NCBI RefSeq assembly: GCF_003001815.1
Contig: NZ_PVMZ01000001.1
Coordinates: forward strand, 496,001 to 560,000
Reading direction: 5' to 3'
Origin: Actinoplanes italicus
GTDB taxonomy: Bacteria > Actinomycetota > Actinomycetes > Mycobacteriales > Micromonosporaceae
Length of the DNA: 64,000 bases
Shown: piece after piece, positions 42,390-44,757 of the stretch
How positions within the stretch are numbered: the first letter of the stretch is position 1
Layout: every line of letters starts with the position of its first letter
Notes under the pieces: model-generated
Databases searched by the model: none
Told to the model about the DNA's origin: nothing
The model's input: the letters and a program-made list of their open reading frames with translations, nothing else
Translations under genes and position numbers: made by a program

Positions 42390-44231
42390 ATGCCACTTCC
42401 TCAACGGCGTCACCTCGCCGCACCGATAGCCCTGCTGGCCGCCGCAGCCGTGCTCACCGCGATCCCGGGCACGCAGACCGCGGCCGCCGCGCCGCCACCC
42501 GAGTTCGCCCCGGTCTCCGTCTCGTACGGCCAGGCCAAGGGCACCACGGTCAAGGGCCAGTTCCTCAGCTACAACGACTTCCACGGCGCGATCGACCCAC
42601 CGACCGGCAGCGGTGCGGTGGTCAACGCCGGAGGCACCAGCACCCCGGCCGGCGGTGTGGAGTACCTCGCGACATATCTCAAGAGGCTGCGCGCCGAGGC
42701 GACGGCCGAGGGCCGCTCCACGATCACCGCCGGCGCCGGCGACCTGATCGGCGCGACCCCGCTGGTCAGCGCCGCGTTCCACGACGAGCCGACGATCGAG
42801 CTGATGAACCAGGTCGGGTTGCAGGTGAGCTCGGTCGGCAACCACGAGTTCGACGAGGGCGTCAACGAGCTGATCCGGATCCAGCGGGGCGGCTGCCACC
42901 CGGTCGACGGATGCCAGGACGGCGACCCGTACCGGGGCGCGAAGTTCACGTACCTGGCGGCCAACACGATCAGCAAGAAGACGAGGCTGCCGATCCTGCC
43001 GCCGATCGACATCCGGTACGTGAACGGCGTACCGGTCGGGTTCATCGGCATGACGCTGGAGGGCACGCCGAGCATCGTGAACCCGGCAGGCATCAAGGAC
43101 GTCACCTTCACCGACGAGGTGGTGACCGCCAACCGGTGGAGCACGGTGCTGAAGCTGTTCGGTGTGAAGGCACAGGTGCTGCTGTTGCACGAGGGCGGTT
43201 CACAGGCCTCGGTCACGCCGACGCCGGGTGTCTCCGACTGCAACGGCTTCACCGGTCCGCTGGTGCCGATCGTGGCCGGTCTCAACCCGGAGATCAGCGT
43301 CGTCATCTCCGGCCACACCCACCGCTTCTATTCGTGCAAGCTCCCGAACAGCAAGGGTGCCGACACCGTCGTGACCAGCGCCGGCAGCAACGGTCAGCTG
43401 ATCACTGACATCGACTACACACTGGACAGACGGTCCGGGAAGTTCACCGAGATCACCGCGAAGAACGTGATCGTGGAGAACGGTGTGCCGGACGGCAACG
43501 GCGGCTGGAAGCGAGACGCCGCCGGGGCATTCCTGAAGAACCCGGACACCGTCGACGCCGACGCCAAGAAGGTGGCCGACAAGTACCGCACCGCGGTCGC
43601 CCCGATCGCGAACCGGCTGGTCGGCAGCATCAGTACGGACATCGTCCGTACCGCGACGCCGGCCGGGGAGAGTCCACTCGGTGACGTGATCGCTGACGCC
43701 CAGCTGGCCTACACGCAGTCGGCCGGTGCGCAGATCGCCCTGATGAACCCGGGCGGTGTCCGCGCCGACCTGGACGCCGACCAGTCCAGCGGCGGCGAGC
43801 CCTACGGCCAGGTCACCTACGGCGAAGCGTTCACCGTCCAGCCGTTCAACAACCTGGTCGTCACGCAGACCTTCACCGGCGCCGAGATCAAGGACGTGCT
43901 GGAGCAGCAGTTCGTCGGCGCGTTCGGGCAGACCACCCAGCGGATCCTGCAGGTGTCGGCGGGCCTGACCTACACCTGGAGCGCGTCGGCCGCACCCGGC
44001 TCGAAGATCAGCAACCTGTCGCTGAACGGGACGCCGATCGACCCGGCCGCGAACTACCTGGTCACCACGAACGACTTCCTGGCCAACGGCGGTGACGGGT
44101 TCTCCAACCTCAACCAGGGTCCGGACGGGCGGGTCACCGCACCGGGCTTCGACGTGGACGCGCTCGTGGCGTACCTGGCCACCGGGCCGATCGCGCCGGG
44201 ACCGGCCAACCGCATTTCGGTGACCGCCTGA
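42390..44231 (+). CDS. Secreted 5'-nucleotidase/metallophosphatase (UshA-like)
   Basis: 613 residues. A signal peptide (1 to about 34, ending AAAAP) leads into a calcineurin-like phosphatase domain with FLSYNDFHG, SSVGNHEFDEG and ISGHTHRF (di-metal site). The 5'-nucleotidase C-terminal domain has LGDVIADAQL, NPGGVRADL and NDFLANGGDGF for substrate binding. It probably releases phosphate and nucleosides from extracellular nucleotides. No anchoring helix or LPXTG at the C-terminus, so released. Divergent from pcrA. Confidence 0.93.
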   Translation: MPLPQRRHLAAPIALLAAAAVLTAIPGTQTAAAAPPPEFAPVSVSYGQAKGTTVKGQFLSYNDFHGAIDPPTGSGAVVNAGGTSTPAGGVEYLATYLKRLRAEATAEGRSTITAGAGDLIGATPLVSAAFHDEPTIELMNQVGLQVSSVGNHEFDEGVNELIRIQRGGCHPVDGCQDGDPYRGAKFTYLAANTISKKTRLPILPPIDIRYVNGVPVGFIGMTLEGTPSIVNPAGIKDVTFTDEVVTANRWSTVLKLFGVKAQVLLLHEGGSQASVTPTPGVSDCNGFTGPLVPIVAGLNPEISVVISGHTHRFYSCKLPNSKGADTVVTSAGSNGQLITDIDYTLDRRSGKFTEITAKNVIVENGVPDGNGGWKRDAAGAFLKNPDTVDADAKKVADKYRTAVAPIANRLVGSISTDIVRTATPAGESPLGDVIADAQLAYTQSAGAQIALMNPGGVRADLDADQSSGGEPYGQVTYGEAFTVQPFNNLVVTQTFTGAEIKDVLEQQFVGAFGQTTQRILQVSAGLTYTWSASAAPGSKISNLSLNGTPIDPAANYLVTTNDFLANGGDGFSNLNQGPDGRVTAPGFDVDALVAYLATGPIAPGPANRISVTA

Positions 44232-44269: not shown

Positions 44270-44299
44270 TTGCGGGACCGTCCGAGACGGGGGCATACT
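44270..44299 (+). promoter_or_regulatory. Promoter of the chorismate-mutase transcript
   Basis: A -35-like TTGCGG (44270-44275), an 18-bp spacer and a -10-like CATACT (44294-44299). A start 7 bases later falls exactly on the GTG of the leader peptide at 44306, implying a leaderless leader mRNA. Confidence 0.55.
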
Positions 44300-44305
44300 C
44301 GGCTC

Positions 44306-44371
44306 GTGATCCAGCAGGCGCGATTCTTTACCTATGGCACCGGACGCCCGGCAGCCGTAGGTCGCTCCTGA
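44306..44371 (+). CDS. Attenuator leader peptide with Phe-Phe-Thr-Tyr
   Basis: A 21-codon frame from GTG to TGA, too short for ordinary gene finding. Codons 7-10 are TTC TTT ACC TAT (Phe-Phe-Thr-Tyr) at 44324-44335. The frame ends 12 bases before a strong terminator hairpin and lies upstream of chorismate mutase, whose pathway makes Phe and Tyr. Slow translation of these codons would report Phe/Tyr shortage. No ribosome-binding site is needed if the transcript starts at the GTG. The arrangement is seen; function is inferred. Confidence 0.65.
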   Translation: MIQQARFFTYGTGRPAAVGRS

Positions 44372-44419
44372 ACCCCAGACCTACATCAAGCCCCGGGCCG
44401 TCCAGCCCGGGGCTTGATG
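44342..44419 (+). promoter_or_regulatory. Phe/Tyr transcription attenuator before chorismate mutase
   Basis: Alternative pairings are visible. The terminator is 44384-44398 with 44405-44419. An antiterminator can form between GGACGCCCGG (44342-44351) and CCGGGCCGTCC (44393-44403, one bulge). A small hairpin pairs GTAGGTC (44357-44363) with GACCTAC (44378-44384). A ribosome stalled at the Phe codons leaves 44342-44351 free to block the terminator; one that reaches the stop codon covers it. Confidence 0.62.
44384..44419 (+). terminator. Attenuator terminator hairpin
   Basis: A perfect 15-bp stem with loop CGTCCA. No T-tract follows. It lies between the leader stop (44371) and the chorismate mutase start (44467). 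Confidence 0.75.
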
Positions 44420-44466
44420 CTGTCCGGGCCGGATTGGCCGGGACGTCAGTACCCGAGGAGCAGGAC

Positions 44467-44757
44467 ATGACCGCCGACGTGATGGACCAGGCGACAGGCG
44501 CGGGCGAGGACGCGGCCGCCGAGAAGATCCGTGGCATCCGCGAGCGCATCAACGAGATCGACAAGACGATCATCGAGCTGTGGCAGGAACGTGCGGCCCT
44601 GTCGCAGGAGGTCGGCAAGACCCGGATGGCCAGCGGTGGTACCCGCCTGGTGCTGGCACGGGAGCGCGAGATCATCGAGCACTTCCGCGAGGCGCTCGGC
44701 CCGGACGGTACCCAGGTGGCGCTGCTTCTGCTGCGTTCCGGCCGCGGCCCGCTGTAG
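44467..44757 (+). CDS. Chorismate mutase (type II, AroQ)
   Basis: 96 residues from the ATG at 44467, with GAGGAG upstream. It is the all-helical AroQ fold: IRERINEIDKTIIELWQERAAL, EVGKTRMASGG and REREIIEHFREAL supply the conserved Arg, Lys and Glu/Gln positions. It converts chorismate to prephenate, the branch to Phe and Tyr. Stand-alone form without prephenate dehydratase. Its leader contains the attenuator above, fitting feedback by Phe/Tyr supply. Confidence 0.9.
   Translation: MTADVMDQATGAGEDAAAEKIRGIRERINEIDKTIIELWQERAALSQEVGKTRMASGGTRLVLAREREIIEHFREALGPDGTQVALLLLRSGRGPL

Follow-up and report, generated by a model that had tools for sequence, protein, structure and literature searches.

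The chorismate mutase (CM) gene of Actinoplanes italicus is preceded by a short reading frame with Phe and Tyr codons and by potential RNA hairpins, which raises the question of whether its transcription is governed by a ribosome that senses these amino acids. We analysed the locus within a stretch of 64,000 nucleotides (hereafter the window, to which all positions refer; leader and CM features lie on the plus strand) from the 11.15-Mb host genome, whose nearest named relatives by CM (96% identity) were Actinoplanes sandaracinus, A. xinjiangensis and A. philippinensis. The leader and CM follow pcrA/uvrD, which lies on the minus strand, and a 5'-nucleotidase-like gene (42390-44231) that in Actinoplanes separates pcrA from the leader; beyond CM come oligopeptide ABC transporter genes, again on the minus strand. 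The pcrA gene was observed directly upstream of the leader, and divergent, in Salinispora and Micromonospora as well as in several other families. The CM gene (44467-44757, 96 aa) has a Shine-Dalgarno sequence, GAGGAG, at 44455-44460 by direct reading. Its product exceeded the cut-offs of both NCBIfam models, NF005894 (106.8 bits, cut-off 73) and TIGR01808 (74.8 bits, cut-off 52.15), and is an AroQ chorismate mutase of the Rv0948c type; it also matched Pfam CM_2 and PDB 2qbv/Rv0948c (E 1.4e-18). A second CM in the same genome (L002, C10:140786-141016, minus strand, 57% identity) was without a leader, as were the CM paralogues L111, L192 and L193. Another match to the leader model in this genome, at C2:687869, was read as chance.

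The promoter, the 21-codon GTG frame, its Phe-Phe-Thr-Tyr codons and the hairpins before an aroQ-type gene were all found where the first-pass annotation had placed them. A -35-like hexamer (TTGCGG, 44270-44275) is separated by an 18-nt spacer from a -10 hexamer (CATACT, 44294-44299), which lies 6 nt before the GTG at 44306 of the predicted leaderless frame VIQQARFFTYGTGRPAAVGRS (44306-44371, GTG start, 21 codons, TGA at 44369-44371). A CTTGCG-type element was present at the same place in most Micromonosporaceae leaders. Among 150 distinct relatives the -10 box was CATACT in 141 and the leader start codon was GTG in 145 and ATG in 5, while the distance from the -10 box to the start codon was 6 or 7 nt in all 150, the informative part being this narrow range, as the search pattern itself demanded a -10 box 5-8 nt upstream. 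In Streptomyces lividans the -10 box stands on average 6.3 nt from the start site, and the clearest -10 boxes occur on leaderless transcripts (PMC8079986). Given the constant spacing and the S. lividans mean, the transcript is predicted to start at the leader codon; transcription probably begins at or beside GTG 44306, with the leader translated without a Shine-Dalgarno site, and the constant spacing argues against a transcript start after 44419. A leaderless attenuator before a stand-alone CM in an actinomycete had been presented as notable, which was overstated, since actinobacteria are already known to have leaderless leader peptides (PMC8079986). A scan with a sigma-70 consensus tuned to E. 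coli, which was set aside, returned no promoter and one unrelated terminator-like site.

The control codons, Phe-Phe-Thr-Tyr (TTC TTT ACC TAT), occupy 44324-44335. The three positions before the conserved Tyr and the Tyr position itself encoded Phe or Tyr in 45, 47, 40 and 49 of 49 divergent sequences, respectively (at least 80% each), and one divergent genus (L178) had Phe codons and no Tyr. Phe was written TTT:TTC in a ratio of 204:64 in the leaders (204/268 TTT) vs 3:72 in the genes of the window (3/75), a preference that may leave the stall site free of pairing or make its decoding slower. Beyond the Phe/Tyr block most Micromonosporaceae share a similar peptide tail (GTGSPAAVGRA). Natural deletions of 1-2 nt in or after the block altered this tail or brought an early stop with the RNA folds kept, the frame being lost after the Phe codons in L025, L026, L076, L084 and, separately, L164, and an RPSRRSR-type tail was found in genera g5, g12, g14 and g15, again with the folds retained. 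These natural frameshifts support selection at the RNA level after the Phe/Tyr block. We also searched for the conjunction of a -10 box 5-7 nt before an ATG or GTG, a short ORF with at least three of four Phe/Tyr codons and a hairpin with 12 bp or more; the window contains it once, and 30 first-order Markov sequences as long as the window gave no instance.

Folding of the leader RNA was far below that of shuffled sequences (z -5.0). A 1:2 pause hairpin (44330-44362, -20.5 kcal/mol), whose strand 1 begins at the control codons, joins 44330-44338 with 44354-44362 and 44340-44343 with 44348-44351 (ACCUAUGGC.CCGG with CCGG..GCCGUAGGU). The antiterminator consists of two helices between a 5' side at 44342-44363 and a 3' side at 44378-44403: the outer 2:3 helix pairs GGACGCCCGG (44342-44351) with CCGGG-C-CGUCC (44393-44403; CCGGGCCGTCC in the DNA, with one bulged C), and the inner pairs GUAGGUC (44357-44363; GTAGGTC) with GACCUAC (44378-44384; GACCTAC). 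The terminator hairpin 3:4 (44384-44419, -32.0 kcal/mol) has the arms CAUCAAGCCCCGGGC/GCCCGGGGCUUGAUG. In the antiterminator the terminator's 5' arm is occupied, and 44393-44403 either pairs with 44342-44351 or sits in the terminator stem and loop; as predicted folds, the two are mutually exclusive, with one strand shared. The first-pass annotation had already proposed mutually exclusive hairpins, and the exclusion stands through the pairing of 44342-44351 with 44393-44403. The 7-bp GTAGGTC/GACCTAC helix alone was rejected as antiterminator, and the outer helix is needed for exclusion because this 7-bp helix shares only one base with the terminator. The same annotation had called the terminator perfect, which holds for its stem of 15 perfect bp but not for what follows, as there is no U-run in this genus. 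In the window the stem is followed by CTTGATG (CTTGATGCTG), as in Actinoplanes and its allies, where the longest T-run was 2 in 43 of 46 sequences; T3-T6 followed the stem in 70 of 83 other Micromonosporaceae sequences. The missing U-run counts against an attenuator in Actinoplanes.

Reading these elements together, we consider it highly likely that a ribosome-mediated transcription attenuator controls CM, the enzyme at the branch that leads to Phe and Tyr. With Phe- and Tyr-tRNA charged, the ribosome would proceed to the TGA and cover strand 2, whereupon the 44384-44419 hairpin would form and transcription would end. Under a shortage of Phe, and probably of Tyr, the ribosome would halt at 44324-44335 and cover strand 1, leaving strand 2 (44342-44363) to pair with 44378-44403; with the terminator 5' arm thus occupied, RNA polymerase would continue into the CM gene. 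CM, which feeds Phe and Tyr synthesis, accordingly appears under this model to be switched on when Phe or Tyr runs short. We modelled the switch with a ribosome assumed to cover 13 nt, counted from the A-site codon, and a transcript reaching up to the terminator loop. The antiterminator held about 19 modelled pairs with the ribosome on the Phe/Tyr codons (positions -3 and -2); this fell to 14 once the last Tyr was reached, to 9 on the Gly that follows and to fewer than 3 three codons past Tyr, and because the modelled pairing drops there, the switch point is placed where the Phe/Tyr block ends. Full-length equilibrium folding gave no switch, the completed terminator being most stable at every ribosome position, and switching must therefore be kinetic. 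With the ribosome absent and the 3' arm unmade, the model favoured the antiterminator over the 1:2 hairpin in the window, a preference that would weaken basal termination.

Aligning the leader across Micromonosporaceae, a check that had been proposed for this locus, found the Phe/Tyr codons and the pairings conserved at all orthologous loci examined and beyond, with compensatory changes. Leader DNA was present in 61/61 genomes of the genus and the CM gene in 149/151 genomes of the family; leader and structure were found together at 49/49 named orthologous CM loci and in 78/78 fetched family regions (at L107, L144 and L178 the leader was recovered or confirmed by covariance model). Within the family, 96% of the 1:2 hairpin cells were paired, and the lower stem of the terminator showed compensatory changes. 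Cells with two-sided changes numbered 33 for the 1:2 and 3:4 hairpins vs 11.5 in shuffles (0/500 shuffles reached 33) and 22 for the outer antiterminator helix at the level of the order vs 8.6 (0/500 reached 22); these shuffles keep relatedness in, and slid versions of the same helices scored lower. One example is column 36/52 of the 1:2 hairpin, with a double change from C-G to G-C in 12 order-level sequences; another is the outer antiterminator helix, which reads GGAGUCCGG/CCGGGCUCC in Micromonosporaceae and GGACUCCGG/CCGGAGUCC in family f15. All 49 family sequences formed the antiterminator (-18 to -36 kcal/mol), and each strand fitted its own partner better than those of other species, with a mean of -28.9 for own vs -26.2 for swapped partners in the family (0/5000 swaps as good) and -27.8 vs -22.8 in the order (0/10000), the latter remaining significant among non-Micromonosporaceae sequences alone. 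Swapping within the Streptomyces-like genus gave -34.3 for own vs -34.2 for swapped partners and did not discriminate between them. Two-sided compensatory changes thus support both the pause hairpin and the two-part antiterminator as predicted. An alignment made with the RNA model (A2) was left out, having reverse-strand terminator matches mixed in.

A first RNA model found matches in 227/299 genomes of the order, the weak ones of which may include plain terminators. Nineteen of 20 matches fetched from other families stood before CM (leaders e.g. FFYGPGTPAPVAA), and a second RNA model reached the class Actinomycetes. In genera labelled Streptomyces-like and Mycobacterium-like, labels inferred partly from CM similarity, matches were found in 60/61 genomes (58 at E 2e-5 or better) and in 52/60 genomes (41 at E below 1e-4), respectively. 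The Streptomyces-like leaders start with ATG (e.g. MLTQTTFLFTYGNRPTGCHGRAA), with CM downstream wherever the next gene was read, and at 4/4 Mycobacterium-like loci read (L266, L267, L269, L271) the leader (VLSWQRRFFYGYRSAVPVGI) stood before a close Rv0948c orthologue. The attenuator before CM would therefore span Micromonosporaceae, Streptomyces-like and Mycobacterium-like genomes, Rv0948c orthologues included.

The remaining match of the 20 fetched, L249, stood before a DAHP synthase with the control block WYVF. At 300-430 (match orientation), directly before the synthase gene, L249 has the leader VITRWYVFPDRVSRSGAC together with a hairpin that ends in a T7 tail. DAHP synthase was also downstream at all loci read in family f31 except L280; the leaders there, MRTAFWFWYGDG and MQRNFWRFYGYRP among them, carry Phe, Trp and Tyr codons near position 1500 in match orientation (L288-L314, L259, L268, L277). 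In the f31 antiterminator swap test 0/5000 swaps were as good. Trp occurred in the control block of 28/30 f31 DAHP synthase leaders vs 4/180 CM leaders (Fisher p 3e-28, although the sequences are related and their true independence is lower; f31 and L249 represent at least two lineages). Trp codons that are common before DAHP synthase and rare before CM are fitting for a sensor matched to its pathway, and the homologous DAHP synthase attenuator, with its Phe/Trp/Tyr codons, probably senses all three aromatic amino acids. It is likely, though less firmly so than attenuation of CM itself, that one homologous attenuator family extends across Actinomycetes, in which the sensor codons swap with the enzyme's place in the pathway and the RNA switch stays constant. 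Such a family would offer a set of naturally occurring sensor-codon variants built on a single RNA scaffold.

Attenuation of this kind is already known. The enterobacterial pheL-pheA system has in common with the CM leader its Phe codons, mutually exclusive hairpins and control of chorismate mutase activity; the pheL leader has a Shine-Dalgarno site, its target is a bifunctional CM-prephenate dehydratase, and it concerns Phe only. The leaderless trpL, leuL and ilvL leaders of S. lividans, belonging to the Trp, Leu and Ile/Val pathways (PMC8079986), share control codons, hairpins and a start codon at the transcription start, which is predicted for the CM leader; none of the 8 leaders in that survey stands before CM (PMC8079986). 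In Corynebacterium glutamicum, an aroR leader before aroF (DAHP synthase) is reported to have Phe-Tyr-Phe codons and transcription that rises on Phe limitation (Neshat et al. 2014, via PMC11802643, PMC4046766). By these descriptions, on which alone the two are set side by side, aroR is like the CM leader an actinobacterial leader peptide with Phe/Tyr codons on an enzyme of the aromatic pathway, but it targets DAHP synthase and is, in the sources consulted, reported for Corynebacterium only. Mycobacterium tuberculosis ilvB1 shows ribosome-mediated attenuation with a mapped terminator and uORF (PMC13236596); it resembles the CM leader as a case of such attenuation (predicted for CM) in an actinobacterium and differs in responding to branched-chain amino acids, and the main text of that paper does not mention CM. 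Seliverstov et al. 2005 stated that, in Actinobacteria, the phenylalanine and tyrosine operons showed no conserved RNA structures upstream (PMC1262725). The window and five relatives gave no gathering-score match to Rfam leaders (Phe_leader and others) or T-box, and a permissive threshold gave chance-level matches only. In the literature searched no leader was described before an actinobacterial chorismate mutase, and the attenuator family, its CM target and its breadth appear new, though an earlier listing may exist. The CM leader lends itself to work on attenuation coupled to leaderless translation, in which the ribosome must load on the first RNA bases, and in strain engineering for aromatic products in actinomycetes it would be a control element open to deletion.

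Three other readings were weighed against attenuation. The leader might control CM translation, or act through Rho or pausing rather than intrinsic termination, its folds hiding the CM ribosome binding site or exposing a Rho site. The hairpin without a U-run in the window would suit this, as would the lack of obvious terminators in other actinobacterial leaders (PMC1262725), but T3-T6 follows the stem in most sister genera and covariation links strand 2 to the terminator arm, and we regard this reading as unlikely. It gains in Actinoplanes from a possible pairing of GCTCCT at the leader end (44364-44369) with AGGAGC before CM (44456-44461); this complement to the Shine-Dalgarno sequence is not conserved, most leaders ending in GCGCC TGA, and Shine-Dalgarno sequestration by GCTCCT was ruled out on that ground.

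Far less probable still is nascent-peptide arrest, in which a conserved peptide would stall the ribosome on a ligand and not on a shortage of charged tRNA. The similar tail in most Micromonosporaceae speaks for it, yet RNA pairing alone can account for the tail's identity, the lineages with 1-2 nt deletions change the tail or stop early with RNA folds intact, the Streptomyces-like and Mycobacterium-like leaders have different tails, and before DAHP synthase the control codons change to include Trp. Under an equally improbable reading the short ORF is not translated, and the hairpin does no more than terminate the upstream gene or form a fixed structure at the 5' end. The upstream gene, however, varies, being the 5'-nucleotidase gene in Actinoplanes and divergent pcrA elsewhere, and the promoter, leader and hairpins remain with CM despite this change, while an untranslated ORF is at odds with the retention of Phe or Tyr at each of the four control positions in the 49 divergent sequences.
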